From NCBI GenBank assembly GCA_027449125.1, contig DAIDME010000045.1:1-64000 (forward strand): DNA of 64,000 nt, read 5' to 3'. Below are positions 16,334 through 55,284 of the stretch, piece by piece. Below the pieces are notes generated by a model that did no database searches, was not told the DNA's origin, and saw only the letters and a list, made by a program, of their open reading frames with translations. Each line of letters starts with the position of its first letter. The stretch's first letter is position 1. Made by a program: the position numbers and the translations under genes. This DNA comes from Solirubrobacterales bacterium (GTDB lineage: Bacteria; Actinomycetota; Thermoleophilia; Solirubrobacterales; Solirubrobacteraceae).

Positions 16334-16360
16334 AGATCGGCGGCGTCACTGAATCCTTGA
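16334..16360 (-). promoter_or_regulatory. Sigma-28 (FliA)-type promoter for flgF-flgG-flgJ-flgN-flgK-flgL-fliW-csrA
   Basis: On the minus strand the sequence is TCAAGGAT-N11-GCCGATCT, close to the TAAAGTTT-N11-GCCGATAA consensus of flagellar sigma factors, with identical spacing. It lies in the gap between fliA and flgF and would drive the whole minus-strand operon from about 16327. Confidence 0.75.
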
Positions 16361-16406
16361 GCGGAGGCCGGCAGCCGTGCATGCGGGGCGCCGATCCGAC
16401 GGGCGG

Positions 16407-17213
16407 CTACACCACCTCGCGGAACAGCTGCTCGTCTGCGGTCAGCAACTCTCGCAGGCGCTTGCGCAGCTGCCCGTGGATCTGACAGACGCGACTCTCA
16501 GTCACCCCCAGCTGCTCACCGATCTCTCGCAGCGTCAGGTCCTGTAGATAGAGCGCGACCGCGACCTGGCGCTCGCGCTGCGGCAGCTGCTCGAAGGCCG
16601 AGCGGAAACGCACCCTCGCCTGGTCGCGCATTGTCTGCAGCTCGGGATTCACGCAGCCGTCCTCACTGGCGATCGTGTCGATCCGTTCGATCGTGATGTC
16701 CTCGTCAGCCAGAACGGGTATGTTCAGGGAGCCGACATCGGCACGGCTGATGTCGCCGAGCCACCGCTCCAACTCGGTGACGCTGAGATTCACGGCATCA
16801 GCCAACTCTGAGGGCGCAGGCGTACGCCCGTGCAGCGCGCTGAACTGATCACGGGCGCCGTTGATCTCCCGCTCCCATCGTCGCAGGGATCGTGGCGCCC
16901 AGTCGTTGCGCCTCAACTCGTCAAGCACGGCGCCGTGGATCCTGGTCCAGGCGAACTGCTCGAGCGTCGCTCCGCGGGCCGAGTCGTAGCGGTCGATCGA
17001 GCGCATCAGCGCCTCCAGGCCCGCCGAGGTCAGATCCTCCACCTCACAGCGCGCCGGCAACCCACGAGCCTTCTTGTAGACGATGTACTTCACCATCGGC
17101 GCAAGCGTCAGAACGAGGCGTTCGCGAAGTGCGGCATCGCCGGTTGCGCTGTAGCGCTCCCACAGCTCCTGCACAGACTCGGTGCTCATCCGCTGGGTAG
17201 CTACTGCTGACAC
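16407..17213 (-). CDS. fliA: Flagellar sigma factor (FliA/SigD/WhiG class)
   Basis: A 268-residue sigma-70-family group 3 factor. Region 2 contains ARCEVEDLTSAGLEALMRSIDRYDS and the ATLEQFAWTRIHGAVLDELRRNDWAPRSLRR block typical of FliA/WhiG. Region 3 covers about 120-180, and region 4 is the HTH LTLREIGEQLGVTESRVCQIHGQLRKRLRE. The GTG at 17213 follows an AGGAG site at normal spacing, so it is preferred to the long upstream reading or to the internal ATG at 17189. It is the presumed reader of the GCCGATNA promoters in this window. No FlgM anti-sigma gene is seen nearby. Confidence 0.93.
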   Translation of the reverse strand: MSAVATQRMSTESVQELWERYSATGDAALRERLVLTLAPMVKYIVYKKARGLPARCEVEDLTSAGLEALMRSIDRYDSARGATLEQFAWTRIHGAVLDELRRNDWAPRSLRRWEREINGARDQFSALHGRTPAPSELADAVNLSVTELERWLGDISRADVGSLNIPVLADEDITIERIDTIASEDGCVNPELQTMRDQARVRFRSAFEQLPQRERQVAVALYLQDLTLREIGEQLGVTESRVCQIHGQLRKRLRELLTADEQLFREVV

Positions 17214-17262
17214 GCTTGCTCCTGTACCTGCTCGAGGGTGATCCGGCTGAAAGACTCGACCT

Positions 17263-17290
17263 ACATCGGCCGGCACCCGCCACCAGTTGA
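17263..17290 (-). promoter_or_regulatory. Possible sigma-28-type promoter for fliA (autoregulation)
   Basis: On the minus strand the sequence is TCAAC-N15-GCCGATGT, one base longer in spacing than the best promoters here and with a mismatch at each end. It would start a leader of about 43 bases ending at the AGGAG-preceded GTG of fliA. If real, it implies positive autoregulation. Confidence 0.45.
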
Positions 17291-17500
17291 GTCCCGGTGC
17301 CCTACGCACGCCCGCCGGCCGGATCGTGGCCAGCCGGCGCAGCCCGCGGCAGGGCCCATTGACTCCTCCATTTGCGGGAACTCTTCGGCAAACCCGCAGG
17401 GCGGCTGCGGGATTTCCGCACTGTTGCCTGCACCACGCGGACACAGCGCCGCAACCCGGTGCCTGCCGGACTGCCGGTAACGAGAGGTACAGGACGGCGC

Positions 17501-17527
17501 TAAGGGATCCTCGTCAGCTGCCGATCA
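17501..17527 (+). promoter_or_regulatory. Sigma-28-type promoter for the TPR glycosyltransferase
   Basis: TAAGGGAT-N11-GCCGATCA lies 33 bases before the ATG at 17560. Spacing equals that of the flgB and fliC promoters. It suggests this glycosyltransferase is a flagellar late gene. Confidence 0.65.
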
Positions 17528-17559
17528 CTAGGGCGTCCCCGAACCGAAGGGCCGAGCAG

Positions 17560-20055
17560 ATGGCGCTGCGCCTGACCAAGACGACACTCCCGACAGTCGC
17601 CGGCACAGACACCGGCGATGCGAACGCGGTGCATGCACGCGAAGCGGCCCTGGTCCAGGAGCTGGTGCGCCGCTCCGCGGTGGATCTCTCGCACGGCGAC
17701 AGCAACGGCTACCTGCAGCGGTTTGCCGAAGCCAGGACCATCGAAAACCCGCAGCGTGCCTACCAGGCCTGCAAGCTGCTGCTGGAGCAGGGACTCAGCT
17801 CGCTTCCATCCGTCGACGATCGCCGCGCAACCGCGATTCTGCTGGCGATGGCCAGAGGCGTGCTCGCGACGCTCGATGCCCAGCCGTCAGAGCCGGTGCT
17901 GCTCAACTATGCGGGCGTAGTCATGTATGAGCTCTGGGCGCTCGAAGCCGCGCGCGCGCTCTTCCAGGCAGCCAAACGACTGGACCCCGAGCTACCCCAC
18001 CTCGGGCGCAACCTGGTGGAGGTTGAACGGCGCGCCGCTGGCGACCGTGCCGGCAAGCTGGCGCTTCACCCTCTGGTGTCGGACCTAAACCGGCGATCGC
18101 GGCGGGTCGCAAGCCGCGCAAAGCCCGCCAGCGGCATGCGGCTCAGCGTGTGCATGATCGTCCGCGACGAGGAGGAGATGCTGCCGCGGACGCTGGCGGC
18201 GATCGCGCCGGCGGCAGACGAGATCATCGTCGTCGACACAGGCTCCACGGACCAGACGATCGCGATCGCGCGCTCGTTCGGGGCGACGGTCATCCAGCGC
18301 GCCTGGACCGGATCGTTCAGCGAGGCCCGCAACGCCTCGCTGGAAGCCGCCACGGGCGACTGGTTCCTGTACCTCGACGCCGACGAGGTCCTGGTGGCAG
18401 CCGACGTCGAGCAGCTGAAGGCGCTCACAGGCCAGGTTTGGCGGGAGGCGTTCTACCTCCAGGAGACCAACTTCACGGGCACTGAGGAGAGCGGGGCCGC
18501 GATCGTGCACAGCGCCCTGCGGCTCATCCGCAACCGCCCGCACTACCGTTTCAGCGGCCGCCTTCACGAGCAGATCGCCTTCCATCTGCCCGCCTACCTC
18601 CCGGAGCGGCTCGCGCACTCGACCGTGCGCGTGAACCACTATGGCTACCTGGGGGTTGTGCGCGAGTCCAAGGACAAAGCGCGACGCAACCTCGAGCTGC
18701 TCCTCGCGCAGCGGCGCGAGACGCCCGAGCGAGACCTCGGAGGCTTCTTCCACTACAACCTCGGCTCCGAGTACTTCGCGGCCGGGGATGTGGCAAGCGC
18801 CGTGGCAGAGCTGGAGACCGCGATGCAGAAGGTGGAGCGCGCCGACACGTTCTGGCACGAGTACGTGCCGTCGTTGCTGCTGCGCTCGGTGAAGGCACTG
18901 CGAGCCGCGGGGCGCAACGAGGAGGCGCTGGCCCGCGCGGAAGCTGGCCTGCAACGGTTCCCGGACTTCACGGACCTCGTCTTCGAGCAGGGCATGGCGA
19001 ACCTCGCGCTGGATCAGCTGGAGCTCGCAACCGCGTTTCTGGAGCGGGCTATGGCAATGGGCGACGCCCCCAGCCGCTACACGGCGACGGTGGGAGCTGG
19101 GACGTTCATGCCGCGCATCGTCCTGGCCACTCTGCACCTGAACCACCGGCGCTGGGAACGCGCCATAGAGCTGCTCACTTGGTGTGCAGAGCAGCACCCA
19201 GAGAACGTCGGGAACGTCTACCCGCTCGCGACCGCGTTGCTGCAATCCGGCCGCGACCCTGATCTGGTGGTCGCCCAGCTGGAGCGCCTGGACGTCGGGA
19301 CGACGGCGGCGGCGCGCTTCATGCTCGCAACCGCGCTCTACGAGCAGGGCCACGCCGTGGCGGCCGAGCAGCAGTTCCGCAAGGTGCTCGCTAAACACGC
19401 ACAGAGTTGGGCCGCTCGCGCAGCACTCGTGGAGTCCCTGCTCTATCAGCGCCGCTACACCGATGCCGCACAGGAAGCAGCGCTCGTGGCCGACGACGCT
19501 CCGGCAGCCGCCGTCGTGGCAAGGAGCGGTACCTTCGCCTGCATCCTGGCAGACGATCTGCACGGGGCGCAGGTGACACTCGACCGGGCCCGGCGCGTCG
19601 GCGTATCCGACGGTGATTGCGCAGCCCTGGCCGCCTGGCTGGACCTCAAGTCCGGGCGCACGCCGAACCCGCTGCCGGCGCAAGCGCTCAGTCTCACCGC
19701 GTTGATGCTGGAGGCCACGTTGCGTGTGCACGACTTCGCAAACTTCGAGTCTCTCCTCGGGCTGCTCGCGCACCTGCCGATAGCGGAACGCGAGCGTCGT
19801 GAGCTTCTGGCCCAGATGTACCTGCGCCGCGGCTTCCTGCGCTCAGCGGGCCGGGAGTGGCTCGTCGTATGCGAGCGCGAGCCCGACGCCGCGGGACTCG
19901 TCGGCCTGGCCCTGGTGGCGCTCGCGGACGGCCGAGCCGAGACTGCGACGACGTTCGCGTCACACGCGCTGAAACTTGAACCAGACAACGCGACAGCACG
20001 CAAGCTCCTGGAGCGCACCGCCGGAGCCGCCCTCACAACGGCCGCAGCCGCCTGA
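17560..20055 (+). CDS. TPR-flanked family 2 glycosyltransferase, candidate flagellin/hook glycosylation enzyme
   Basis: An 831-residue cytosolic protein. Residues about 30-170 are helical, TPR-like repeats. A GT2 domain follows from about 193 (LSVCMIVRDEEEMLPRTLAAI, VDTGSTDQT), with the metal-binding DxD-like LYLDADEVL near 271. Residues about 390-830 are a long TPR-like superhelix (NLGSEYFAAGDVASAVAELETA and similar repeats). The GT2-TPR arrangement recalls SunS-like and other protein O/S-glycosyltransferases with TPR acceptor-binding regions. It sits between fliA and fliD behind a sigma-28-type promoter, so a flagellar protein is the likely acceptor (inference). Donor sugar unknown. ATG 17560 is chosen because it lies downstream of that promoter. 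Confidence 0.8.
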   Translation: MALRLTKTTLPTVAGTDTGDANAVHAREAALVQELVRRSAVDLSHGDSNGYLQRFAEARTIENPQRAYQACKLLLEQGLSSLPSVDDRRATAILLAMARGVLATLDAQPSEPVLLNYAGVVMYELWALEAARALFQAAKRLDPELPHLGRNLVEVERRAAGDRAGKLALHPLVSDLNRRSRRVASRAKPASGMRLSVCMIVRDEEEMLPRTLAAIAPAADEIIVVDTGSTDQTIAIARSFGATVIQRAWTGSFSEARNASLEAATGDWFLYLDADEVLVAADVEQLKALTGQVWREAFYLQETNFTGTEESGAAIVHSALRLIRNRPHYRFSGRLHEQIAFHLPAYLPERLAHSTVRVNHYGYLGVVRESKDKARRNLELLLAQRRETPERDLGGFFHYNLGSEYFAAGDVASAVAELETAMQKVERADTFWHEYVPSLLLRSVKALRAAGRNEEALARAEAGLQRFPDFTDLVFEQGMANLALDQLELATAFLERAMAMGDAPSRYTATVGAGTFMPRIVLATLHLNHRRWERAIELLTWCAEQHPENVGNVYPLATALLQSGRDPDLVVAQLERLDVGTTAAARFMLATALYEQGHAVAAEQQFRKVLAKHAQSWAARAALVESLLYQRRYTDAAQEAALVADDAPAAAVVARSGTFACILADDLHGAQVTLDRARRVGVSDGDCAALAAWLDLKSGRTPNPLPAQALSLTALMLEATLRVHDFANFESLLGLLAHLPIAERERRELLAQMYLRRGFLRSAGREWLVVCEREPDAAGLVGLALVALADGRAETATTFASHALKLEPDNATARKLLERTAGAALTTAAAA

Positions 20056-20373
20056 ACCATGAGCCTTACGCACGAATCCACCGCCAACGAACGTCCACCG
20101 GGAGCACACGCCCTCAAGTCAGCGCAGGTCCTGCCGATCTAGCTTCACGAGCACCGCTCGGGCTGACGGCCAGCGGGCTCCACCCGATCGCAAGAGGAAC
20201 GCCCCAGATGCCGCACGCCAAACAGCCACTGTGTGAACCATCTCCGCGGATCGAGCGGTTCGCCACCCTCGCCGTGCACGCGTCCGGGACGCTGCCCCGC
20301 GCCAGCGGAACTGCCGCCTCGGGCTGCGGCGTTGGCTCCGCTCGAGCGACCGCGACGGAGGGGGCGTAGCGCT
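20056..20373 (+). other. fliD upstream region: promoter and long leader
   Basis: This 318-bp gap holds the fliD sigma-28-type promoter (20114-20140) and, if the TTG at 20374 is the true start, a leader of roughly 230 bases. An in-frame GTG at 20233 could add 47 Arg/Pro/Gly-rich residues. No riboswitch or terminator family is recognised in the leader. Confidence 0.4.
20114..20140 (+). promoter_or_regulatory. Sigma-28-type promoter for fliD
   Basis: TCAAGTCA-N11-GCCGATCT matches the window consensus in the -35 core, the spacing and seven of eight -10 positions of the canonical GCCGATAA (allowing T for one A). It is the only promoter-like element between the glycosyltransferase stop and fliD. 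Confidence 0.7.
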
Positions 20374-21900
20374 TTGTCAACTTCTGGAATCTCATCTTCT
20401 GGCAGCGGCATCATCACGTCGCCGACGATCAACACCTCTGGTGGCCTGACGTCCGGCTCGACGCTCACCAACAGTGGCGCCGGGGGGCAGTTGCAGATCA
20501 CCGGTCTCGCCTCTGGCATCAACACCAACCAGCTCATCCAAGCGGAACTCGCCATGTACGAGATGCCGCTGACCAACATCCAGGACACGATCAACGCGCT
20601 GAACGCGAAGAACTCGCAACTCAGCTCGATCCAGGGCTCGCTCCAGAACGTGTCGTTCGACGCGCTGACCTTGGGTGAGCCATCGCTCTTCTTCCAGTCA
20701 CAGACCGTGACGTCGAGCAACTCCGCACTAGTCAGCGCCGCCACCACGCAGAACGTCGGGGCACCGATCGGGTCCACGACCGTCGCCGTATCCGCCTTGG
20801 CCAGCGCCTCGCAGGCGACCTTCAGCTACACCGCTCCAACCAGCGGCAGCGACACGTTGACGATCGGCAATGACAGCGGCACCCAAACCGTGACCGTTAC
20901 CGCCGGCGAGACCAACGCTCAGATCGCAAGCGCCATCAACAGCGACAGCAGCGGAGTCGCATATGCCACCGTACTGAGCAACGGCGATCTCGCGCTGTCG
21001 TCGACGACGACCGGCGATGGCAACTCGTCCGGTACCGGTAACGGCAACCCGATCACACTGTCATCCGCGGTGTCGGGAGCGCTCACACCCGTGAGCACGC
21101 AAGCCGGCCAAGATGCCGAGGTCTACCTCAACGGCAGCACGACGCCCACCTACTCCCAGACCGACACGCTCAGCGGCATAGTGCCAGGGCTCACGTTGAC
21201 GCTGAACGGCGTCACACCGGCAAGCGCTCCGGTGACGATCACCACGAGCGCACCTGCCGCAAACACGAGCTCCATCGTGCAGGCCGTACAGCAGTTCGTC
21301 AGCGACTACAACAGCGCCATTTCGGGCATCGAGAGCGCCATCAACACGGCGCCGCCCAGTGAGAGCAACTCCTCCTACGCCAGCCCCTACACCGGTTCGC
21401 TCTTTGGCGACCCGCAGCTGGAAAACCTCCTGAGCAGCATCCGCTCATCGATTTATACGTCTGATCCGACGCTGACGTCCGGTTACCAGTCCCTGCAGGA
21501 CATCGGCATCTCCACAGGAGCATCCACCGGGTCAGCCACGGCAAACTCGACCAACGGGCTACTGACCGTCAACACCGCCACGCTGACCGCCGCGATCCAG
21601 GCCAACCCGAACGCCGTCGAGGCCGACCTCCAGTCCTTCGCCGGTCAGTTCCAGACGCTGGTCAACGGAGCTGCCGGCCCTGGCGGGTCACTGGCCGCCC
21701 GGATCACCGGCAACAACACCGAGATCTCCGGGCTCAGCGGTCAGCTGACCACGGCCCAGCAGATGTACAACCAAGAAGAGGCGAACCTGCAGGAGCAGTG
21801 GGCGCACGTGGAGGCGACGCTGGCGACACTGGACAGCCAGAAGACTTCGCTGAGCGCCTTCTCGAGCTCGTCATCCTCGTCCTCCTCGACCGGCGGTTGA
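20374..21900 (+). CDS. fliD: Flagellar filament cap protein FliD (HAP2)
   Basis: A 508-residue cap protein. The N-terminal domain has LQITGLASGINTNQLIQAELAMYEMPLTNIQ, the FliD_N signature, and the C-terminal domain ends in coiled coils (LTTAQQMYNQEEANLQEQWAHVEATLATLDSQ) with a Ser-rich tail. FliD caps the growing filament and inserts flagellin subunits. The TTG at 20374 is preferred because GGAGGGGG lies 9 bases upstream and the Ser/Thr/Gly N-terminus is family-like. The alternative GTG at 20233 adds an Arg/Pro-rich extension unlike FliD. fliS follows under its own promoter. Confidence 0.9.
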   Translation: MSTSGISSSGSGIITSPTINTSGGLTSGSTLTNSGAGGQLQITGLASGINTNQLIQAELAMYEMPLTNIQDTINALNAKNSQLSSIQGSLQNVSFDALTLGEPSLFFQSQTVTSSNSALVSAATTQNVGAPIGSTTVAVSALASASQATFSYTAPTSGSDTLTIGNDSGTQTVTVTAGETNAQIASAINSDSSGVAYATVLSNGDLALSSTTTGDGNSSGTGNGNPITLSSAVSGALTPVSTQAGQDAEVYLNGSTTPTYSQTDTLSGIVPGLTLTLNGVTPASAPVTITTSAPAANTSSIVQAVQQFVSDYNSAISGIESAINTAPPSESNSSYASPYTGSLFGDPQLENLLSSIRSSIYTSDPTLTSGYQSLQDIGISTGASTGSATANSTNGLLTVNTATLTAAIQANPNAVEADLQSFAGQFQTLVNGAAGPGGSLAARITGNNTEISGLSGQLTTAQQMYNQEEANLQEQWAHVEATLATLDSQKTSLSAFSSSSSSSSSTGG

Positions 21901-21946: not shown

Positions 21947-21973
21947 TCAATCTGGCCACGCCCCGGCCGATTA
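21947..21973 (+). promoter_or_regulatory. Sigma-28-type promoter for fliS
   Basis: TCAATCTG-N11-GCCGATTA lies 16 bases before the fliS ATG. The -10 differs from GCCGATAA by one base and the spacing is exact. Confidence 0.65.
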
Positions 21974-21989
21974 CCGGTATAGAGCGCTG

Positions 21990-22367
21990 ATGACCACCAA
22001 CTACACCGCTTCGCGCGTCGCCTACCAAAGGGCGGCCATCATGACGGCTTCGCAGGGCCAGTTGATCGTGATGCTCTACGACGGTGCCGGCCGGTTTCTC
22101 GCGCAGGCGAGCAGCGCAATGTCGCTGCGTGAGATCGAAGATGCGCACAACAAGCTGCGGCGGGCCGAGATGATCATCAACCACCTCAGCGCGTCACTTG
22201 ACTACGAGCGCGGCGGCGAGCTCTCCGGCCACCTCGCCGCCATCTACTCGTTCTGCCTGCGCCACCTGAACCAGGCGCGCCTGCATGCAGACCCCGAGAA
22301 GATCGACCAGGTGCGCGAGCTGATGGGCAAGCTGCGCGACGCGTGGGCGCAGATCACGAGCGAGTGA
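21990..22367 (+). CDS. fliS: Flagellin export chaperone FliS
   Basis: A 125-residue four-helix protein. It has the FliS signatures VAYQRAAIMTASQGQLIVMLYDGAGRFLAQA, LRRAEMIINHLSASLDYERGGELSGHLAAIYSF and the terminal RELMGKLRDAWAQI. FliS binds the C-terminus of flagellin and keeps it unpolymerised before export. In Bacillus and Campylobacter it also works alongside FliW. The ATG at 21990 is fixed by its position just downstream of the promoter. The next gene overlaps by a GTGA junction. Confidence 0.94.
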   Translation: MTTNYTASRVAYQRAAIMTASQGQLIVMLYDGAGRFLAQASSAMSLREIEDAHNKLRRAEMIINHLSASLDYERGGELSGHLAAIYSFCLRHLNQARLHADPEKIDQVRELMGKLRDAWAQITSE

Positions 22368-22690
22368 GCGCGATGGAACGGGCGCCCTTCGAGCACCTCG
22401 TCAAGCTCGTGGAGCACGAACTCGAGCTTGCGGCACAGGGCAAGGTCAGCGAGCTCAACGAGGCGGTGCGGCAAACCGGCGCCTACATGGCGACACTCCC
22501 GAACCCCGCCCCCGACGCCGCCCAGCCGTTGGTACTACGCGCATCGGCGCTCAGGGGCCGCCTGACGATCGAGGTCAGGCGTCTGCGCGACGAGCTGGCG
22601 ACGTCGCGCGCAACCATGCGCCGTGCACGCCAGATGACTCAGCACTACCGGAAGGGTCCGGCGCCTGGCAGGTACTCGACCAGCGCCTGA
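22364..22690 (+). CDS. FliT-like small helical flagellar protein
   Basis: A 108-residue, all-helical protein (HLVKLVEHELELAAQGKVSELNEAVRQ; LTIEVRRLRDELATSRATMRRARQ) that starts in a GTGA overlap with fliS, or at ATG 22373. Its size, heptad-like helices and place after fliD and fliS match FliT, the FliD chaperone. FliT is poorly conserved and no decisive motif is visible. A generic FlgN/FliT-type chaperone is equally possible. Confidence 0.55.
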   Translation: MSAMERAPFEHLVKLVEHELELAAQGKVSELNEAVRQTGAYMATLPNPAPDAAQPLVLRASALRGRLTIEVRRLRDELATSRATMRRARQMTQHYRKGPAPGRYSTSA

Positions 22691-22740: not shown

Positions 22741-22768
22741 TCAAGTCCGCCCGCTGGCCGGCCGAGAT
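22741..22768 (+). promoter_or_regulatory. Sigma-28-like promoter for the HD-GYP gene
   Basis: TCAAG-N15-GCCGAGAT has a perfect -35 core and six of eight -10 bases, with spacing one base longer than the other sites. The -10 ends 9 bases before the ATG at 22778, which would give a nearly leaderless mRNA. Confidence 0.5.
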
Positions 22769-22777: not shown

Positions 22778-23923
22778 ATGCGCCTCATATCGCTAGCCCG
22801 CGCGCAAGACGGATCCGAGCTTGGGCGTGACGTCTTGGTCGGCCGCGCGGATGGCGTGCCGCTGCTGCGCGCGGGGGTGAGACTCACACCACGGTACCGG
22901 GAACTTCTGGATCGTTCCGGCATCTCCGCCGTGTACGTGGAGGACGAGGCCAGCGAGGGCATCGTGGTCGAGCCGGCGATCGACGACCACACGCGTGCGG
23001 TGGCGACCCGTGCGGTTGCCGGCGCCTATGGCAGCGTGAGGGATTCTCTGAGCCACGGACGCCGACTGACGCCGGAGGCGGTACAGGGGCTGGAGGATGT
23101 CGTCGCGCGGATACTCGACCAGATCACGTGCTCTGGCGGGGCGGCGCTCGCGCTCGCCGACCTCTCGTCAGCGGACGGCTACACCTTCCAACACTCGATC
23201 GACGTGACGGCGGTGGGACTCCTGTTGGGCATGCGCTACTACGCCCGACACGGCTGGACCGACTTCCGCGGAGAGCGGCGCTTCGACAGGCTCGAGGAGC
23301 GCATGTCGATTCTCGGGCTCGGCCTGCTCCTACACGACATCGGCAAGCTCGCTGTACCTCTGGGGATCCTCAACAAGCCCGGACGGCTGACGCCCGAGGA
23401 GTGGGCCATCATGAGGACCCACCCGCGGGCCGGTGTCGACATGCTGGACGGCAGCCGCTGGAGCCCCCTCGTCAAGGCGGTGGTGCTGCGACACCATGAA
23501 CGCTGGAACGGCTCCGGATACCCCGACGGTCGCGCCGGCGACGACATCCACCAGATGGCCCGCATTGCGGCGGTCGCCGACGTGTACGACGCGATCACAT
23601 CCGACCGGCTGTACGCGCCGGCACGCCCGGCGCACTCGGGAGTCACTGCAATCGTCGAGGGCTCCGGCACACTCTTCGACCCTGATGTCGTGGATGTCTT
23701 CCGCCAAGTGGTCGCCCCGTTCCCAGCAGGGACCGAGGTCGAATTGTGCGATGGGCGCAGAGCGCTGGTGGTCAGCGTGAACGAGGAGGCGCTGGACCGG
23801 CCCCGTGTTCGCATCCTGGGCAGGCCCGGCGAGGCCGAGGAGGTCTCGCTGCTCGATGACCCGACGCTGGCGATCCGCGGTTGGACGCATCAGCCGGCCG
23901 CGACTCAACCCGTGGCAATCTGA
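22778..23923 (+). CDS. HD-GYP domain protein, probable c-di-GMP phosphodiesterase
   Basis: A 381-residue protein. Residues about 1-60 form an N-terminal module (DVLVGRADGVPLLRAGVRLTPRYRELLDRSG) common in front of HD-GYP domains. The catalytic domain covers about 110-320. Metal ligands are visible in FQHSIDVTAVG, LHDIGKLAVPLGIL (H186, D187), the downstream HP and HHERWNGSGYP, the last being the GYP signature, plus VADVYDAITSDR. The C-terminal 50 residues form a small beta-rich tail. Active-site residues look intact, so hydrolysis of c-di-GMP is expected. A sigma-28-like promoter directly upstream suggests co-expression with late flagellar genes. Confidence 0.9.
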   Translation: MRLISLARAQDGSELGRDVLVGRADGVPLLRAGVRLTPRYRELLDRSGISAVYVEDEASEGIVVEPAIDDHTRAVATRAVAGAYGSVRDSLSHGRRLTPEAVQGLEDVVARILDQITCSGGAALALADLSSADGYTFQHSIDVTAVGLLLGMRYYARHGWTDFRGERRFDRLEERMSILGLGLLLHDIGKLAVPLGILNKPGRLTPEEWAIMRTHPRAGVDMLDGSRWSPLVKAVVLRHHERWNGSGYPDGRAGDDIHQMARIAAVADVYDAITSDRLYAPARPAHSGVTAIVEGSGTLFDPDVVDVFRQVVAPFPAGTEVELCDGRRALVVSVNEEALDRPRVRILGRPGEAEEVSLLDDPTLAIRGWTHQPAATQPVAI

Positions 23924-23963: not shown

Positions 23964-23990
23964 TCAAGCTTCCCGCCTCCCCGCCGATAA
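23964..23990 (+). promoter_or_regulatory. Sigma-28-type promoter for the flgB-led operon
   Basis: TCAAGCTT-N11-GCCGATAA has a perfect -10 and near-consensus -35. It lies 79 bases before flgB and is the likely main promoter of the long hook-basal-body and chemotaxis operon. It is unusual for hook-basal-body genes to depend on the late sigma factor in enterics, but this occurs in other hierarchies. Confidence 0.75.
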
Positions 23991-24069: not shown

Positions 24070-24432
24070 ATGTCCCTCCTTGACAACACCCAGCTCGCGC
24101 TCGAGTCCGCCATGAACGGGGCCATGCTCAGGCAGTCGCTCCTTGCCAACGACCTCGCAAACGCGGCGACGCCCGGCTTCAAGCCAGAGGACGTCAACTT
24201 TCAGCAGACCCTGGCCAGCGCCATGGCCTCTGGACAGTCTCCCACATCCGTGACGTTCACCCCCTACGTCCAGAACGTCACAAACGCTCAGAACGGCAAC
24301 GGCGTGAACCCTGCCGTGATCAATTCCGACATCGCAGAAAACGGGTTGCTGTACTCCGAGCTGACGCAGATCGCCACTACCCGTGAGAACATCCTGCTGA
24401 CCGCGATCGGCAGTCCGCCGGCGGTGCCATGA
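24070..24432 (+). CDS. flgB: Flagellar proximal rod protein FlgB
   Basis: A 120-residue rod protein: LALESAMNGAMLRQSLLANDLANAATPGFKPEDVNFQ at the N-terminus and LLYSELTQIATTRENILLTAIG at the C-terminus are the FlgB ends. It joins FlgC, FlgF and FlgG to build the rod. The ATG at 24070 is chosen over an upstream in-frame start because it gives the family N-terminus. The stop overlaps the flgC start (ATGA). Confidence 0.93.
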   Translation: MSLLDNTQLALESAMNGAMLRQSLLANDLANAATPGFKPEDVNFQQTLASAMASGQSPTSVTFTPYVQNVTNAQNGNGVNPAVINSDIAENGLLYSELTQIATTRENILLTAIGSPPAVP

Positions 24433-24869
24433 GCTTCTTCGACGCCATCAACATCTCGGCATCGGGGCTCACGGCGGAGCGTCTGCAGATGGACGTCACG
24501 GCGGAAAACCTGGCCAACGCGCAGTCCACGAACAACGGCAACCCCTATAAGCCGCAGGCAGTGGAGCTCCAAGCCGTCGGGTCGGGCAACAGCTTCCAAG
24601 CCCAGCTCAGCTCTGCGCTCGGAGGCCAGGCACCCGCGCCCGGCGGCGTGCAGGTCACTGGCATCGTCAATGAGAACGTACCCGCGCAGCTCGTCTATGA
24701 CCCGGGCAACCCGCAGGCCAATGCTCAAGGCTACGTCAAAGAGCCGAACATCCAACCCGTCACGGAGATGACGAACCTGATCGCCGAGTCAGACGATTAC
24801 CAAGCCGACGTCACAGCGATGAGTACAACCAAGCAAATGTACCAAGACACGATCCAGTTACTGACATGA
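24429..24869 (+). CDS. flgC: Flagellar proximal rod protein FlgC
   Basis: A 146-residue protein with FFDAINISASGLTAERLQMDVTAENLANAQST and the terminal VKEPNIQPVTEMTNLIAESDDYQADVTAMSTTKQMYQDTIQ, the diagnostic FlgC ends (the NIQPVTEM block equals the NVDIVEEM of other species). Length is normal. It overlaps flgB and fliE by 4 bases at each side, so translation is coupled. Confidence 0.94.
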   Translation: MSFFDAINISASGLTAERLQMDVTAENLANAQSTNNGNPYKPQAVELQAVGSGNSFQAQLSSALGGQAPAPGGVQVTGIVNENVPAQLVYDPGNPQANAQGYVKEPNIQPVTEMTNLIAESDDYQADVTAMSTTKQMYQDTIQLLT

Positions 24870-25210
24870 CAATTCCCCCAATCGGCATCGGGCCGCTGGG
24901 CGCCGGCCAATGGAGCGTCGGCGGCCTGGGCACGAGTGTACCCTCAGTCACCGCCACGGCAAACGGCGCCAGCTCAACACCAGGTGGCGCCCACAGCTTC
25001 GGCGCCGCCCTCTCCAACGCGATCAGTGCACTGGAGAGCTCACAGGCAGCCGGCAGTCAGGCGGCCGAGCAGCTGGCGACCGGCCAGGCTACGAACCCGA
25101 CGACGGCGGTCACCGCTGTCGAGAACGCGAGCTTGGCGATGACCTACGCGGCGCAGATCCGCAGCCAGATCGACAACGTCGCGACCACCCTGTTCCAGAC
25201 CCAGGTATGA
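24866..25210 (+). CDS. fliE: Flagellar hook-basal body protein FliE
   Basis: A 114-residue small protein. The C-terminal half (HSFGAALSNAISALESSQAAGSQAAEQLATG; LAMTYAAQIRSQIDNVATTLFQTQV) matches FliE, which links the MS ring to the rod and is an early export substrate. The N-terminal Gly/Thr/Ala stretch is variable. It is placed between flgC and fliF as in most bacteria. Confidence 0.9.
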   Translation: MTIPPIGIGPLGAGQWSVGGLGTSVPSVTATANGASSTPGGAHSFGAALSNAISALESSQAAGSQAAEQLATGQATNPTTAVTAVENASLAMTYAAQIRSQIDNVATTLFQTQV

Positions 25211-25229
25211 GCCACCAGCTCCAGGCACG

Positions 25230-26771
25230 ATGAACCCGAACGTCCGCGACATCACGAGCAAGCTGTCGACCCGAGGCTGGCTCACATTCGGTGGCGCCGC
25301 GCTGCTCGGCGTCGTATTCGTCTACGCGCTCCTGAGCCTTGCGTCCTCGCCGAGCTACACGACGCTGGTCGCCGGGCAGAGCCCAGCTCAGACGGAGAAG
25401 ATCACAGCCGCATTGTCGACGGGAGGCATCGCCTACAAGCTTTCCAACAGCGGCACCGCTGTTGAGGTCAACCCGACGAGCGTCGGCGAGGCCCGAGACC
25501 TGCTCGACAGCCAAGGCCTGTTGAGCGGTGGCTCAGGCAGCCTGGAATCCTACCTCGGCACGACCAGCCTCGGCGAGAGCACCTTCCAACAGCAGGAGCA
25601 GTCGACGTCGGCTCTGGAGCAGCAGCTCGATCAGACGATCACGGGGATGAACGGGATCAACCAGGCGCAGGTGCAGCTGGCGATACCGAACCAGGCCGCG
25701 AACCTGTTCACCGGCACCAACACGCAACCGACGGCGTCAGTTCTGCTGAATACCAACGGAGCGCTCAGCGGCAGCGCCGTCAAGGCCATCGCGGGCCTGT
25801 TGACGGGCGACGTGACCGGTCTGAGCGCCAGCAAGGTCACGATCACCGACCAGAACGGCGACCTGCTCTGGCCGGCTTCCGCGAGCCAGAGCCTCAACAG
25901 CTCACTCACCGCCAAGCAGTCAGCTGAGAACGCCTATGACAGCCAGATGGCAGACCAGGTGGACGCGATGCTGGCGGCCACACTCGGCCAGGGCAAGGCG
26001 GTCGTTCACATCAACGCCGACCTGAATGCCAACCAGCAGAAGATCGCGTCAGTCACCTACGCCAAGAAGGGCACGCCCTACCAGACCAGCCTGACGACCA
26101 CCTCGCTCAAGGGGACGGGAACGACTCCCGGGGGCGCCGCTGGGACCAGCTCGACGAACATCGCGAGCTACGCGGCCACGACCGGTGGCAACTCAAACTA
26201 CAAGAGCAAAACCGGCCAGACTGACTCGTACGTGAACAAGACCGTCTCGCAATCTGTGATCGCACCGGGCGCGGTGAATCACCAGAGCATATCGGTGCTC
26301 GTCAACAGCTCCGTCCCGGCGAGCGAGCTACCAACGATCCGCGCGGCCGTGGAGAACGCGGCTGGCTACAACGCGAAGCGGGGCGACACGATCTCCATCG
26401 GAGCACTGCCATTTGCGAAGCTCAGTGCTCCAGCGGCGGCCGCCAGCTCCCCTGCCAGCATGCTCGGCGACGCCAAGTACGTTGTGGTGGGGCTGGGCGG
26501 TTTGCTCTTCCTCTTCTTCATGACCCGGCTGCTGCGTCGCCGCGAAGGCGAGCAGTTCACCGGACAGCCCACGTGGCTCCGTGAACTGGAGACGCCGAGG
26601 TCGCTAGCCGAACTGGAGTCGCAGAGCAGGGTCACCGACCTGGAGCCGCCGACGGTCGTCGCGCGCCTGCGCCCGCCCGTAAATGTGCCCCGCCAGCAGG
26701 TCGAGGACCTCGTCGACCGCGACCCCGAGCGTGTCGCCTCACAGATCCGCCAGTGGATGACTGAGGACTGA
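25230..26771 (+). CDS. fliF: Flagellar MS-ring protein FliF
   Basis: A 513-residue membrane ring protein. The first span is at about 20-40 (LTFGGAALLGVVFVYALLSLA). YscJ/FliF-type ring-building motifs follow (YTTLVAGQSPAQTEKITAALSTGGIAYKLSNSG), then a Gly/Thr/Ser-rich linker and the second span at about 415-435 (VVVGLGGLLFLFFMTRLLRRR). The C-terminal FliG-binding tail ends in DPERVASQIRQWMTED, very similar to known FliF tails. It shares one base with the fliG start. Confidence 0.95.
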   Translation: MNPNVRDITSKLSTRGWLTFGGAALLGVVFVYALLSLASSPSYTTLVAGQSPAQTEKITAALSTGGIAYKLSNSGTAVEVNPTSVGEARDLLDSQGLLSGGSGSLESYLGTTSLGESTFQQQEQSTSALEQQLDQTITGMNGINQAQVQLAIPNQAANLFTGTNTQPTASVLLNTNGALSGSAVKAIAGLLTGDVTGLSASKVTITDQNGDLLWPASASQSLNSSLTAKQSAENAYDSQMADQVDAMLAATLGQGKAVVHINADLNANQQKIASVTYAKKGTPYQTSLTTTSLKGTGTTPGGAAGTSSTNIASYAATTGGNSNYKSKTGQTDSYVNKTVSQSVIAPGAVNHQSISVLVNSSVPASELPTIRAAVENAAGYNAKRGDTISIGALPFAKLSAPAAAASSPASMLGDAKYVVVGLGGLLFLFFMTRLLRRREGEQFTGQPTWLRELETPRSLAELESQSRVTDLEPPTVVARLRPPVNVPRQQVEDLVDRDPERVASQIRQWMTED

Positions 26772-27835
26772 TGGCGGTCGAGCTGTACCAGCAGCCGCAG
26801 GCGCCCACGCCAACCGGCACCGGCAGCCGGTCGGCGGGAGCCAAAGTGAACGGTCGCAAAAAGGCCGCGGTGCTGCTCGTCGCGCTGGGCCCCGAGCGAG
26901 CATCCGAGGTCTTCAAGCATCTCCACTACGACGAGATCGAGTCACTCTCGCTGGAGATGGCGAAGATGCAGCACGTGGAGCCCTCCATAACCACAACGGT
27001 GATGGAGGAGCTGGCGGCGACCGTTCAGGCCTACGACTCGATCGCCGCCGGCGGAGTCGACTACGCGCGCGAGGTCCTCGAGCGAGCCATCGGCAGCGAC
27101 CGCGCGGCGGAGATCATCGGGCGCCTCTCGTCGGTCATCGAGATGCGCCCGTTCGAGTTCCTGCGCCGGACTGCGCCTGAACAGATCGTCGCGTTTCTCC
27201 GCAACGAGGCCCCCCAGACGGTCGCGCTGGTTGTCGCCAACCTCCACACGACGCTCGCGGCTCAGGTGCTCGCCAGCCTGCCCGAGGAAGAGCAGGCTGA
27301 GATCGCGCTTCGCATCGCTCGGATGGGCGAGACCAGCCCGGAGGTCGTCAAGCAGGTGGAAGAGGTGATGCGCACGAAACTCGCGACCCTGGTCCAGAAC
27401 GAGTACACGGCGACCGGGGGCGTCAAATCTCTGGCCGAGATCCTCAACCACACCGACCGCCCGACCGAACGCAATGTGCTCGACTCCCTCACTGAGACCG
27501 ACGAGGAACTCGCGGCCGAGGTCAGGCGCCTGCTGTTCGTCTTCGAGGACATCGTCAAGCTCGACGATCGCTCGATCCAGCTCGTGCTGCGCGAGGCGGA
27601 CCAGAAGGATCTGGCGCTCGCTCTGCGAGGCGTGAGCGACGAGGTGAAGACCCGGGTGCTCAACAACATGTCGGAGCGCGGCGCGCAGATGCTGCTCGAG
27701 GAGATGGAGTACCAACCCCCACAACGCAAGCGTGTGGTTGAGGAGGCGCAGGGACGGATCGTCGCGATCGTCCGGCGGCTCGAGGAGGCGGGCGCGCTGG
27801 TGCTGTCCCGCAGCGACGCAGACGTGATGTTCTGA
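26771..27835 (+). CDS. fliG: Flagellar motor switch protein FliG
   Basis: A 354-residue switch protein. FliG_N (about 30-130, GRKKAAVLLVALGPERASEVFKHL), the middle domain (about 145-215, with the EAPQTVALVVANL version of the EHPQ motif) and the C-terminal torque domain (FVFEDIVKLDDRSIQLVLREADQKDLALAL) are all present. The C-domain keeps the charged residues that face the stator. It begins inside the fliF stop. The C-terminal tail ends DADVMF. Confidence 0.96.
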   Translation: MAVELYQQPQAPTPTGTGSRSAGAKVNGRKKAAVLLVALGPERASEVFKHLHYDEIESLSLEMAKMQHVEPSITTTVMEELAATVQAYDSIAAGGVDYAREVLERAIGSDRAAEIIGRLSSVIEMRPFEFLRRTAPEQIVAFLRNEAPQTVALVVANLHTTLAAQVLASLPEEEQAEIALRIARMGETSPEVVKQVEEVMRTKLATLVQNEYTATGGVKSLAEILNHTDRPTERNVLDSLTETDEELAAEVRRLLFVFEDIVKLDDRSIQLVLREADQKDLALALRGVSDEVKTRVLNNMSERGAQMLLEEMEYQPPQRKRVVEEAQGRIVAIVRRLEEAGALVLSRSDADVMF

Positions 27836-27854
27836 GCCATCGACGCGATCCGGC

Positions 27855-28526
27855 ATGCCCTCCCACACCGCCCAGAACTACAGCTTCAAGCAGCTGGAGC
27901 GCTCCCTCCTCGAGGACTCGAGTCCCGCGACGCTGCTTGCCAGTGCGCACGCAGACGCGGCTGACATCCGCGAGCGCGCACGAAGTGAAGGCTATGCGGC
28001 CGGATACGAGGACGGGCTCACCCATGCCCGTGAGGAGGCAGCGGCGGGGCTGAGCGCGCTGATTGAAGCCAACACCGCCTTACGGGCCACACAGAGTGAG
28101 CTGGCGGACGGTCTCAGCATCCAGGCAGGTGAACTGGCGCTGATCGCGGCGGAACAGATCGTCGCGGGCGCGATCACAGTGCAACCGCAGCGAGTGGTCG
28201 ATGTGGTGAGGGGAGCGCTGCGGCGCCTCAGCGAACGCACCCGCGTGACGCTGGTGGTGCACCCGTCGCTGCTTGACCTCCTCCACGGTGCGACCGCCGA
28301 CCTGCGAGCTGAGCTCGGCGGCATCGACCACCTCGAGCTGCAAGCGGACCGCCGCGTGGCGCCGGGCGGGGCGATCGCGCGCACCGACCAAGGAGAGGTT
28401 GACGCCAGCATTGCGGCGCAGCTGCAGAGCGCCCGCGACATCGTGGCCGCGGCGCTCCGTCAAGAAGGCGCCGGCGCCGACGCGAAGCGGACGGTTGACG
28501 AACCCAGACCGGCAGATGGCGGCTGA
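27855..28526 (+). CDS. fliH: Flagellar export ATPase regulator FliH
   Basis: A 223-residue protein with the FliH layout. An N-terminal segment includes YAAGYEDGLTHAREEAAAGLSALIEAN, containing GxxxG-like repeats. The C-terminal FliH/V-ATPase-E-like domain has LIAAEQIVAGAITVQPQRVVDVVRGALRR, VHPSLLDLL and the DRRVAPGGAIARTDQGEVDASIAAQL phrase typical of the family. FliH holds FliI near the export gate and inhibits it. Its last 11 bases overlap fliI. Confidence 0.9.
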   Translation: MPSHTAQNYSFKQLERSLLEDSSPATLLASAHADAADIRERARSEGYAAGYEDGLTHAREEAAAGLSALIEANTALRATQSELADGLSIQAGELALIAAEQIVAGAITVQPQRVVDVVRGALRRLSERTRVTLVVHPSLLDLLHGATADLRAELGGIDHLELQADRRVAPGGAIARTDQGEVDASIAAQLQSARDIVAAALRQEGAGADAKRTVDEPRPADGG

Positions 28527-29940: not shown

Positions 29941-29990
29941 ACCTGCTCGCCACGCTCAAGTTCCTGAGCCTGCTGCCGATCACCGAGAGC

Positions 29991-37082: not shown

Positions 37083-37202
37083 CTGAACGCACGTGGCCGT
37101 CAGTCGGCGACGGCTAAAGCTACGCCGCCGCAGGCCGAAGAACCAGATACGGGCCGGCGCGTGCAGCGCTTGCCCGGTTCGACGACCACCAGGAGAACCA
37201 AG

Positions 37203-45149: not shown

Positions 45150-45177
45150 TAAAGCTGGACGGCCCATCGGTCGATTA
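45150..45177 (+). promoter_or_regulatory. Candidate sigma-28-like promoter for the fliO-P-Q-R-flhB-A-F genes
   Basis: TAAAG-N15-GTCGATTA lies in the cheY-fliO gap, 33 bases before the fliO ATG. The -35 equals the enteric TAAAG core, the -10 has two mismatches to GCCGATAA, and spacing is one base longer than the best sites. Plausible but weaker than the main set. Confidence 0.4.
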
Positions 45178-50687: not shown

Positions 50688-50702
50688 GTGGGTCCGTGAG
50701 AG

Positions 50703-52523: not shown

Positions 52524-53167
52524 TGCGACCGGCACACCAGAGCCACACACGCAGCAAGCACGGCCCAACCGGGACCCTGTTCACGTCCGAGACGGCGCCG
52601 GTGCCGGTTGGCATCAGCACTCACGGAGACGACCTGCTGCTCGTCGTCCTGGACAGCGCCGACACCCCACCCGCCGAGATGCCAGCGCCGTGCTTCCTCG
52701 AGTCCACGGGGAGCCGCGGCGTTGTGCGCACCCAAGGGCATGCGGAGCGCGTCGCCGGAAACCTGCTGCGCTTCGTCGTCGACGACGACCTGAAGGTGGT
52801 TCAACGCCGCGAGTTCGTCCGCGTGACGGCGGCCAAACGGGTCGTCCTCGAGGATGGCGAGGGAGAGCTCATAGCCGATGCGCTGACGGTCGATCTGAGC
52901 GGTGGCGGGATGTTGGTGCAGCTACCTCGCAAAGCTGTGTTGCCGGCGGCGGATACCGTCTACTTCTCGCTGTACCTCGGTACCGGTGGCGCCGGTGGCG
53001 CCGGTGGCGAGATCCGCGGGTCGGCGCATGTGGTGCGCAGGCGCGAGGACAACCGGGTGGCGCTTGCGTTCGACCACATTTCCCACAATGATCAGGAGCG
53101 CTTGATCAGGTATGTCTTCGAACGTCAGCGGGTCGCGCTGAGAGTGACGCGCGGCGACGGCATCTGA
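52523..53167 (+). CDS. YcgR-like PilZ domain protein (c-di-GMP receptor)
   Basis: A 214-residue protein. The N-terminal beta domain (about 15-90) resembles YcgR_2/YcgR, and the C-terminal PilZ domain carries both c-di-GMP signatures: the RxxxR box in QRREFVRV and the DxSxxG box in VDLSGGGM. A Gly/Ala repeat (GTGGAGGAGGE) interrupts the barrel. YcgR proteins brake the motor when c-di-GMP is high. It is translationally coupled to flhF (the ATG overlaps the stop; GTG 52520 is an alternative), and an HD-GYP enzyme is encoded in the same locus. Confidence 0.88.
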   Translation: MRPAHQSHTRSKHGPTGTLFTSETAPVPVGISTHGDDLLLVVLDSADTPPAEMPAPCFLESTGSRGVVRTQGHAERVAGNLLRFVVDDDLKVVQRREFVRVTAAKRVVLEDGEGELIADALTVDLSGGGMLVQLPRKAVLPAADTVYFSLYLGTGGAGGAGGEIRGSAHVVRRREDNRVALAFDHISHNDQERLIRYVFERQRVALRVTRGDGI

Positions 53168-53178
53168 CCGACATTGAA

Positions 53179-53607: not shown

Positions 53608-53656
53608 ACGCAGGAGCGCAGACCCCAACGGCGAATGACCTTGGGCAGAGACCGCC

Positions 53657-54034: not shown

Positions 54035-54100
54035 GCCAGCATCGCTCCGGCGGCGGGCAGACGCGCGTTCGCGTGGCGACGATGCGTCGCGACCGGGCGC

Positions 54101-54127
54101 TCAAGTATCTCCGCGAGACGCCGATAA
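54101..54127 (+). promoter_or_regulatory. Sigma-28-type promoter for flagellin
   Basis: TCAAGTAT-N11-GCCGATAA matches TAAAGTTT-N11-GCCGATAA at 6 of 8 and 8 of 8 positions with exact spacing. It is the best promoter in the window and lies 64 bases before the flagellin ATG, consistent with flagellin being the strongest late gene. Confidence 0.85.
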
Positions 54128-54191
54128 GAGCGGTAAGGCCGACATGGAGTCGGTCGGGACGACCAACCAACAAGCCATCAAGGAGATCGGC

Positions 54192-55061
54192 ATGTCCCTC
54201 ATCATCAACACCAATATCGAAGCGCTGATCGCGCAGAACAGTCTCACTAACACTGAGAACTCCCTGAACACCGCGATGACGGACCTGTCCTCCGGTCTGA
54301 GCATCAACACCGCGGCAGACAACGCGGCGGGTTACGCGATCACCCAGGACCTGACCGCTCAGGTCAACGGCCTGAACCAGGCCAACTCCAACGCGCAGGA
54401 CGCAACCTCGCTCGTTCAGACCGCTGCCGGCGCGCTGAACGACGTCGGTCAGATGCTGCAGCGCGTCCGCGAGCTTGCCGTGCAGTACCAGGGCGGCACA
54501 CTCGACGCGACCGACCAGAACGCGATCGTCTCTGAGGTCCAGCAGCTCGCCAGCCAGATCGAGCAGATCGGTCAGCAGGCACAGTTCAACGGCATCTCGC
54601 TGTTCGCCCCGACCGGAGCCAACGGCACCGGCAACCTGACCTTCCAGGTCGGCGCCAACGACGGCGAGGTGATCGCGATCACGCTGCAGGCACTGGTCGG
54701 GTCAAACGGCGTGATCAGCCTGATCGACACCGTGACGGCGGGCATCGGCACGGCCGGTAGCGCGAGCCTCCTGAGCCTCGGCGCGAACGGCGTGCTGGCA
54801 ACGCTGAGCAACATGATCGATGCGGTCTCGACGCTGGCGTCGGAGTTCGGTGCGGTCCAGAACCGTCTGAGCTACACCATGTCCAACCTGTCCACGTACT
54901 CGGAGAACCTGACTGCGGCACAGTCGACCATCCAGGACGTGAACATGGCATCCGAGATGACGCTCTTCACTCAGGATCAGATCCTGCAGCAGTCGGGCAT
55001 CTCGATGCTGTCGCAGGCGCAGCAGAACCCGCAGGCCGTTCTGAAGCTCCTCGGCGCTTAG
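54192..55061 (+). CDS. fliC: Flagellin
   Basis: A 289-residue filament protein. The N-terminal D0/D1 (LIINTNIEALIAQNSLTNTENSLNTAMTDLSSGLSINTAADNAAGYAITQDL) and C-terminal D1/D0 (LSYTMSNLSTYSENLTAAQSTIQDVNMASEMTLFTQDQILQQSGISMLSQAQQNPQAVLKLL) are canonical. The central variable region is short (about 145-205), so this is a minimal flagellin, with Ser/Thr residues that could be glycosylated. It starts at ATG 54192 behind AAGGAGATC. It has its own promoter and a strong terminator. A GGA-containing leader could be a CsrA target. Confidence 0.97.
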   Translation: MSLIINTNIEALIAQNSLTNTENSLNTAMTDLSSGLSINTAADNAAGYAITQDLTAQVNGLNQANSNAQDATSLVQTAAGALNDVGQMLQRVRELAVQYQGGTLDATDQNAIVSEVQQLASQIEQIGQQAQFNGISLFAPTGANGTGNLTFQVGANDGEVIAITLQALVGSNGVISLIDTVTAGIGTAGSASLLSLGANGVLATLSNMIDAVSTLASEFGAVQNRLSYTMSNLSTYSENLTAAQSTIQDVNMASEMTLFTQDQILQQSGISMLSQAQQNPQAVLKLLGA

Positions 55062-55076
55062 TGAAGCACTTCGCCT

Positions 55077-55108
55077 GACCGGGGCGGCGCTCCAGCGCCG
55101 TCCCGGTC
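55077..55108 (+). terminator. Flagellin transcription terminator
   Basis: GACCGGGGCGGCGCT (55077-55091) pairs with AGCGCCGTCCCGGTC (55094-55108) with a single G-U pair, a 15-bp stem beginning 16 bases after the flagellin stop. No U-tract, but the stem is strong and the position is right. Confidence 0.7.
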
Positions 55109-55227
55109 GGACGTCCACCTCTCGGCTGACGCGTACGGCAATTCGGCGTCAGCTGGGCCCATACCTCGCCCACTCATCCAGGCGAGCCCATATCCATCTC
55201 CGATCCATCGAGGGAACCGGAACGCAT

Positions 55228-55251
55228 GGGGCGAGGCTTCGGCCTCGCCCC
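55228..55251 (+). terminator. UUCG-capped hairpin before the glycosyltransferase island
   Basis: GGGGCGAGGC and GCCTCGCCCC form a perfect 10-bp stem closed by a TTCG tetraloop. It lies 6 bases before the -35 of the next promoter. It probably acts as a second terminator insulating flagellin transcription from the glycosyltransferase genes. Confidence 0.6.
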
Positions 55252-55257
55252 TGTGGT

Positions 55258-55284
55258 TTAAGCTGGGCGCCCGCCCGCCGACAA
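55258..55284 (+). promoter_or_regulatory. Sigma-28-type promoter for the glycosyltransferase island
   Basis: TTAAGCTG-N11-GCCGACAA has the window's exact spacing, a four-of-five -35 core and a seven-of-eight -10. It ends 9 bases before the GTG at 55294, predicting a nearly leaderless mRNA. Confidence 0.6.

Follow-up and report, generated by a model that had tools for sequence, protein, structure and literature searches.

Introduction

Promoters read by the enteric flagellar sigma factor FliA (sigma-28) follow the consensus TAAAGTTT-N11-GCCGATAA. Here we describe sites of this class in a stretch of 64,000 nucleotides (nt) from a Solirubrobacterales bacterium (assembly GCA_027449125.1, contig DAIDME010000045.1, positions 1 to 64,000), hereafter the window, which is a flagellar and chemotaxis cluster with a fliA gene of its own. 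A preliminary description, made from the letters of the window, had spoken of a sigma-28 regulon in an actinobacterium-like genome. The host is indeed an actinobacterium, a member of the Solirubrobacterales of the same genus as Conexibacter sp. DBS9H8.

According to the available part of a review, WhiG is the actinobacterial orthologue of FliA, control of motility by WhiG orthologues is raised for motile actinobacteria, and no FlgM-like protein was found in those motile actinobacteria that bear WhiG (PMC4255298). The accessible sections of another paper report that K57, G61 and R62 of WhiG contact cyclic di-GMP (c-di-GMP), that Conexibacter woesei has a single-motif form of the anti-sigma factor RsiG, RsiG of the Thermoleophilia being mentioned there as single-motif only, and that in Rubrobacter, where 20 promoters of this class had been predicted, starts were mapped for 12, five of them before diguanylate cyclase or phosphodiesterase (DGC/PDE) genes (PMC8325347). 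A literature search, judged on its results and on the available parts of PMC8325347 and PMC4255298, brought up no study that describes a FliA regulon for the Thermoleophilia.

The sites described below are best explained as promoters of the sigma-28 class that are mainly read by the FliA encoded at 16407-17213, with WhiG sharing the class; we put the probability of this reading at roughly 0.85.

Results

Sites in the window

The window was searched on both strands with the pattern TNAAG-N14-GCCGATNA, allowing at most one mismatch. Nine sites were found in the 64 kb, i.e. seven that the preliminary description had named, plus 29956-29982 and 37115-37141, and all nine are intergenic and directed at a start codon not more than 350 nt away. 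In 400 rounds of dinucleotide shuffling, the 27 intergenic segments gave a mean of 0.025 sites and a maximum of 1, so the motif is not equally frequent in shuffled intergenic DNA. A background of 400 kb from the same genome (20 stretches) held 12 such sites, none of them both intergenic and upstream of a start. Twelve other spacers (8-13 and 15-20) gave 0-2 upstream sites each in the window.

The sites and the genes that they precede are as follows.

16407..17213, minus strand: fliA, flagellar sigma-28 of the FliA/WhiG family (TIGR02479; sigma70 r2, r3 and r4; orthologues)
17263..17290, minus strand: weak variant site before fliA, TCAAC-N15-GCCGATGT, 49 nt upstream of the gene (tentative)
16334..16360, minus strand: site before flgF, 10 nt to ATG (pattern match and relatives)
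10733..16323, minus strand: flgF-flgG-orf-flgN-flgK-flgL-fliW, downstream of the flgF site (Pfam/NCBIfam)
17501..17527, plus strand: site before the GT2-TPR glycosyltransferase gene, 32 nt to ATG (pattern match and relatives)
17560..20055, plus strand: GT2 and TPR protein, candidate flagellin glycosyltransferase (Pfam Glycos_transf_2, TPR)
20114..20140, plus strand: site before fliD, 233 nt leader (pattern match)
20374..21900, plus strand: fliD (Pfam FliD_N, FliD_C)
21947..21973, plus strand: site before fliS, 16 nt to ATG (pattern match and relatives)
21990..22690, plus strand: fliS and a chaperone-like open reading frame (ORF) of 105 amino acids (aa) (Pfam FliS)
22741..22768, plus strand: N15 site before the HD-GYP gene, 9 nt to ATG (pattern match and relatives)
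22778..23923, plus strand: HD-GYP protein, predicted c-di-GMP phosphodiesterase (Pfam HD_5, HD; HD and GYP motifs)
23964..23990, plus strand: site before flgB and basal-body/export genes, 79 nt to ATG (pattern match and relatives)
24070..29940, plus strand: flgB-flgC-fliE-fliF-fliG-fliH-fliI (flgC, fliF and fliI by Pfam; fliE, fliG and fliH named by position)
29956..29982, plus strand: site before fliJ, 0 mismatches, 8 nt to ATG (pattern match and relatives)
37115..37141, plus strand: site before cheW, 61 nt to the start (pattern match and relatives)
45150..45177, plus strand: weaker N15 site before fliO, TAAAG-N15-GTCGATTA (pattern match)
54101..54127, plus strand: site before the flagellin gene, 64 nt to the start (pattern match and relatives)
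54192..55061, plus strand: flagellin (Pfam Flagellin_N, Flagellin_C)
55258..55284, plus strand: site before the gene of a 1232-aa glycosyltransferase, 9 nt to GTG (pattern match and relatives)
55294..63063, plus strand: glycosyltransferase genes downstream of flagellin (Pfam GT2, GT4)

All eight sites that had been named at the outset lie where they were placed, on the same strands. The spacing given for them is also correct, with N14 in seven (16334-16360 minus, 17501, 20114, 21947, 23964, 54101 and 55258) and N15 at 22741-22768, a site with the -10 GCCGAGAT and two mismatches. By the -10 GCCGATNA and a TNAAG -35 at N14, seven of the eight belong to the sigma-28 (FliA/WhiG) class with at most one mismatch. 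The TCAAG-like -35 ascribed to the set has to be qualified for the site at 17501, which is present with the -35 TAAGG, or CTAAG with N15. Likewise, flagellin had been given the best match to the enteric consensus; its site (fliC) is among the top ones and ties with flgB, each matching at 14 of 16 positions. The fliJ and cheW sites and the weaker N15 site before fliO had been overlooked.

At flgF, fliJ, the HD-GYP gene and the 1232-aa glycosyltransferase gene, 8-10 nt separate the end of the -10 from the start codon, and at fliS 16 nt. If transcription starts 5-8 nt past the -10, the figure of the preliminary description, there would be almost no mRNA leader. Gaps of 7-16 nt, as seen at several promoters, thus predict mRNAs with little or no leader (leaderless mRNAs).

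As to gene names, flgB scored 51.4 bits to TIGR01396, under the cutoff of 59, and the 105-aa ORF after fliS (22373-22690) matched no Pfam or NCBIfam family. Where relatives have a FlaG-like ORF before fliD (the name FlaG being given by eye), the window (20140-20374) has only a 53-aa ORF, which by eye is unlike FlaG. A c-di-AMP (ydaO/yuaA) riboswitch lies at 3199-3368 on the minus strand (76.9 bits).

Conservation of the sites in relatives

In this and the following sections, genomes, contigs and loci are denoted by G, C and L numbers where they have to be told apart. The named relatives are 18 actinobacterial loci (L009-L026) out of 80, the 62 others (L027-L088) having been dropped. Six of the loci, L009-L013 and L015, come from the same genomes as G006, G013, G016, G008, G004 and G019, i.e. 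the comparison by loci and that by 41 genomes overlap; the relatives include draft genomes. Upstream regions were taken as the 130 nt before orthologous starts, for alignments reaching the N terminus, and were searched for N14 sites, two mismatches being allowed.

Such sites were found before flgF in 14/14 relatives, fliS in 11/11, flgB in 11/12, the GT2-TPR gene in 7/9 and the HD-GYP gene in 1/5. Pooled, 44 of 51 upstream regions have a site compared with 0.3 in shuffles, a conserved position before flagellar genes that again places the sites in the sigma-28 class; twelve comparison genes gave 14/107 (shuffles 1.3). The -10 of the flgF site ends 7-11 nt before the start in 14/14 usable relatives. 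For the HD-GYP gene, whose promoter is often N15 across the genomes that have it, seven of the nine genomes (own included) have a site of no more than two mismatches that ends 7-10 nt before the start. Of 20 flagellin rows, the own one included, 15 have a site between -54 and -80; as two pairs of rows share identical upstream DNA, this makes 13 of 18 distinct upstream regions. Sites were also seen before fliJ (2/2 relatives inspected), cheW (2/2) and the 1232-aa glycosyltransferase gene (2/3), and an exact N14 site lies near the uncertain fliO start in L204, the sole relative reaching that region. The fliD sites vary more, and in relatives the FlaG-like ORF stands between site and fliD. In general, the sites lie at similar distances from start codons in related Solirubrobacterales while the spacer DNA has diverged.

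Just outside the window, at C45:64684-65391 (L094 2684-3391), a gene encodes a protein of no Pfam family (235-288 aa, with a conserved C-terminal domain); it has an exact sigma-28 site in 4/4 genomes.

The fliA gene and its upstream region

The fliA product scores 191 bits to TIGR02479 (FliA/WhiG family), over the curated cutoff of 189.6. It stays below the cutoffs of both the FliA subfamily model PRK06986 (176.8, cutoff 201) and the WhiG equivalog PRK06288 (205, cutoff 343), and we call it FliA because of the family match, its flagellar neighbours and its contrast with WhiG. Orthologues, 54-75% identical, occur in 16/40 relatives (17/41 genomes with the own one). The gene stands among flagellar genes in 16 of the 18 named relatives, and the GT2-TPR gene adjoins it in 15/18.

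Relaxed sites were found before fliA in 12/19 loci, nine of them N15, against a mean of 4.65 and a maximum of 11 in 100 rounds of shuffling. Their -10 is mostly GCCGATGT or NCCGATAC, and an exact GCCGAT occurs within the last 130 nt before fliA in 8/19 loci, compared with 1.16 by shuffle. Judged from these motifs, the variant site may reflect autoregulation or input from WhiG.

Sites outside the cluster

A genome-wide scan with at most one mismatch gave 130 matches, compared with 44 for the reversed pattern; of the 120 one-mismatch matches, those in the window, the background stretches and the fetched flanks were examined. Six of the ten exact matches are upstream of a start (C14, C106 and four on C45), three are within called genes (C46, C62 and C89:216238), and the position of the remaining one, on C96, is ambiguous. 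Among genomes of the same genus the exact motif was counted 49 times in 12 FliA-bearing genomes and 26 times in 13 others, a weak indication, the matches being mostly unsorted by position.

Sites with 0-1 mismatch precede a methyl-accepting chemotaxis protein (MCP) gene on C14, a PAS-GGDEF-EAL gene on C106 and a GGDEF-EAL gene on C89. The MCP gene, with an exact site, is present in 5/41 genomes, all FliA-bearing. In the own genome, in G012 and in G021, the copies of the two GGDEF-EAL genes, which share at least 77% identity, retain the site at offsets of -55 to -57 and -7, although their upstream spacers differ; more distant rows have no site at those offsets (17/20 and 9/12, among them L118 and L171, which have no usable upstream DNA). 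Both G012 (one contig, 93% complete) and G021 (69% complete) have a WhiG-like sigma factor; searches of the two genomes gave no FliA orthologue and no flagellin. Because the sites are kept where FliA was not found, a sigma factor other than FliA probably reads them there, and WhiG probably reads the same promoter class, at least at the two GGDEF-EAL genes.

A one-mismatch site also lies before a GDSL-lipase gene on C7.

WhiG, RsiG and the c-di-GMP contact residue

The gene at C27:21461-22207 encodes WhiG, with 304 bits to Streptomyces WhiG 6pfj, whereas the window FliA reaches at most 156 bits (6pfv); this comparison with solved WhiG covered the own copy, and the G012 copy by alignment. A WhiG-like sigma factor (37-42% match) is present in 38/41 genomes, and RsiG (PF22802) in 36/41, with or without FliA. 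The own RsiG has 97 aa and a single motif with His for Gln (71 bits). Its gene is on C34, and a search for the motif in the window, L093-L103 and the 20 background stretches gave none. The genome thus encodes, along with WhiG, a partner RsiG with a c-di-GMP motif, for which binding is predicted. Upstream of whiG and of rsiG no site was found, even with two mismatches allowed. Two RsiG matches lie close together in five genomes of one family in the order (G033, G027, G030, G036 and G039); in G033 both are inside one ORF of 189 aa (L203 1075-1644, G033 C7).

At position 61 all 18 flagellar FliA proteins aligned (the window and 17 relatives; L026 was left out as partial) have Tyr. They retain K57 and have K or R at position 62, while WhiG of the own genome and of G012 retains K-G-R. 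Because Tyr replaces the Gly that contacts c-di-GMP, FliA would escape RsiG and is probably insensitive to it; from residue 61, control of FliA by RsiG is thought unlikely.

HD-GYP and FlgM

The HD-GYP gene is present in 9/41 genomes, all nine among the 17 with FliA. Both the HD and the HHExxxGxGYP motif of such phosphodiesterases are found in the window protein; across the nine genomes the GYP motif is seen in 9/9 and HD[IVL]GK in 7/9. The predicted effect of the enzyme is a fall in c-di-GMP while the flagellar genes are expressed.

Between a gene for an SRP54-type GTPase (flhF-like) and flagellin, a PilZ domain gene (52523-53167) encodes a possible c-di-GMP receptor.

FlgM was not found among the flagellar genes. 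The ORF at 14391-14909, in the flgF-fliW stretch where FlgM might be expected, was rejected as a candidate, as it matches no Pfam or NCBIfam family and is by eye unlike FlgM. A single FlgM match was found in the whole genome, a short ORF on C110 (L100 2510-2677, G000) with 27.4 bits, over the Pfam cutoff of 25; upstream of it are two N15 sites with two mismatches. FlgM matches occur in 25/61 genomes, 19 of them over the cutoff. Similar short ORFs (L207, L208, L209 and L210) were seen in FliA-bearing genomes and also in G012 and G021, where FliA was not found, and because of the latter the short protein is possibly a partner of WhiG.

Discussion

The preliminary description had counted the HD-GYP and glycosyltransferase genes as members of the regulon. 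The site statistics, the conservation in relatives, the adjoining fliA gene and the co-occurrence of HD-GYP with FliA support this. In the scheme that we prefer, the promoters would have the form TCAAG-N14-GCCGATNA, sometimes with N15, and the FliA of 16407-17213 would be their main reader. RNA polymerase with FliA would use some 11 scattered promoters to transcribe almost all of the flagellar and chemotaxis cluster, including its early basal-body genes. The same set would add the GT2-TPR enzyme, the glycosyltransferase genes beside flagellin, the MCP on another contig and HD-GYP, the last of which would bring c-di-GMP down while the flagellar programme is on. WhiG, held by RsiG as a c-di-GMP-bound anti-sigma factor, would serve the two GGDEF-EAL genes through the same promoter class. 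We rejected a set of late genes only, as in enterics, because flgB and fliJ (with conserved sites) and cheW are also preceded by sites.

Several observations weigh against FliA as the main reader, or against individual members of the set. By themselves, the N15 sites are only weakly enriched, with two upstream sites in the window (4.8 kb intergenic) and four in the background (46.7 kb intergenic). Start codons were placed with the help of homology and of a gene caller of our own making. Sites are missing in 2/9 relatives before the GT2-TPR gene, in 1/12 before flgB and in 1/3 before the 1232-aa glycosyltransferase gene, in 2/9 genomes before the HD-GYP gene, and in 5/20 rows before flagellin, one of these a partial match. 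Conversely, some comparison genes have sites (flgG 8/15, fliE 3/7, fliA 2/18, fliW 1/3), of which those upstream of flgG are probably further true sites. Of six MCP loci, five could be scored, and the site is present in three of these (own, G006 and G004) and absent in two; the other MCP gene of the genome, on C62, lacks a site even when one mismatch is allowed. The absence of FliA from G012 and G021 is not absolute, given their completeness, and RsiG was not found in G021 in the 41-genome search. Finally, the recognition regions of FliA and WhiG appear too alike for sites to be assigned to one or the other by motif alone.

Two other explanations were considered beside chance. The first is a relay, in which WhiG, freed from RsiG as c-di-GMP falls, would transcribe fliA via the variant site, and FliA would then transcribe the flagellar set. 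The variant fliA sites and the excess of GCCGAT before fliA speak for such a relay, WhiG and RsiG are widespread, and FliA is without the c-di-GMP-contacting Gly. The fliA sites depend on relaxed criteria, under which single shuffle rounds came close to the observed count; the stricter N14 rule leaves those in two of 18 relatives, and autoregulation by FliA would give the same picture. We regard the relay as possible, though unlikely. Still more tentatively, the observations could be drawn together as two sigma factors acting in turn on one promoter class: c-di-GMP and RsiG would hold WhiG; as c-di-GMP falls, WhiG would start fliA and the GGDEF-EAL genes; and the Tyr-bearing, RsiG-free FliA would turn on the flagellar genes and HD-GYP, driving c-di-GMP further down and locking the motile state without a flagellar-encoded FlgM.

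The second explanation makes WhiG instead of FliA the reader of all the sites, so that RsiG and c-di-GMP gate flagella and c-di-GMP genes together and FliA has another job. WhiG and RsiG are both encoded, the recognition regions are similar, the GGDEF-EAL sites are retained where FliA was not found, and mapped starts place promoters of this class before pilus as well as DGC/PDE genes in Rubrobacter, according to the available part of the report (PMC8325347). This explanation sits badly with the flagellar genes that flank fliA in nearly all named relatives, with an HD-GYP gene that is found solely alongside FliA, and with the fact that a WhiG-like sigma factor is present in nearly all of the 41 genomes whereas flagellin is present in 12; we consider it improbable. 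As for chance or coding coincidence in GC-rich DNA, the motif does occur elsewhere outside promoter positions, as in the background matches, and the genome-wide scan gave 130 matches against 44 for the reversed pattern, but the position and direction of all nine window sites, the shuffles and the conservation in relatives while spacers diverge contradict it, and we reject it as having a negligible probability.

If the preferred reading is true, a c-di-GMP-gated sigma factor and an ungated flagellar one divide a single promoter class between them. It would then become possible to test how a regulon is shared out among sigma paralogues, and how swimming is coupled to c-di-GMP in an early lineage of actinobacteria; moreover, the conserved short gaps predict leaderless flagellar mRNAs.

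Comparison with known systems

With the enteric class III promoters of FliA the present set shares the -10, a near-identical -35 and an equal spacing (TCAAG-N14 corresponding to TAAAG-N14), as well as flagellin, fliD, fliS and chemotaxis genes as members. It differs in having sites before flgB and fliJ too, in a -35 that is mostly TCAAG, in promoters that often lie 7-16 nt from the start codon, and in that no FlgM was found among the flagellar genes.

A flagellar sigma factor driving a c-di-GMP phosphodiesterase, as predicted here, is also described for BifA of Pseudomonas putida in the available part of the report (PMC5300878); there, the host is a proteobacterium and the enzyme another one, whereas here it is an HD-GYP protein in an actinobacterial flagellar cluster. 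The FliA-family sigma factors of Actinoplanes missouriensis are, in the accessible sections of PMC8325347, a case of actinobacterial flagellar genes under WhiG-like sigma factors, as here; unlike Actinoplanes, which is given there as lacking RsiG, the present genome has WhiG, RsiG and FliA together. The picture outlined in the available part of the review (PMC4255298) differs in that FliA and WhiG are separate genes here and that a FlgM-like protein passes the Pfam cutoff. In c-di-GMP control there is a likeness to the WhiG-RsiG system, as far as the available part of its description goes (PMC8325347): WhiG and a single-motif RsiG are present here, with the same promoter class on c-di-GMP turnover genes. 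That system concerns pili, whereas here a second sigma factor, FliA, with Tyr in place of the contact Gly, would serve the flagellar cluster.

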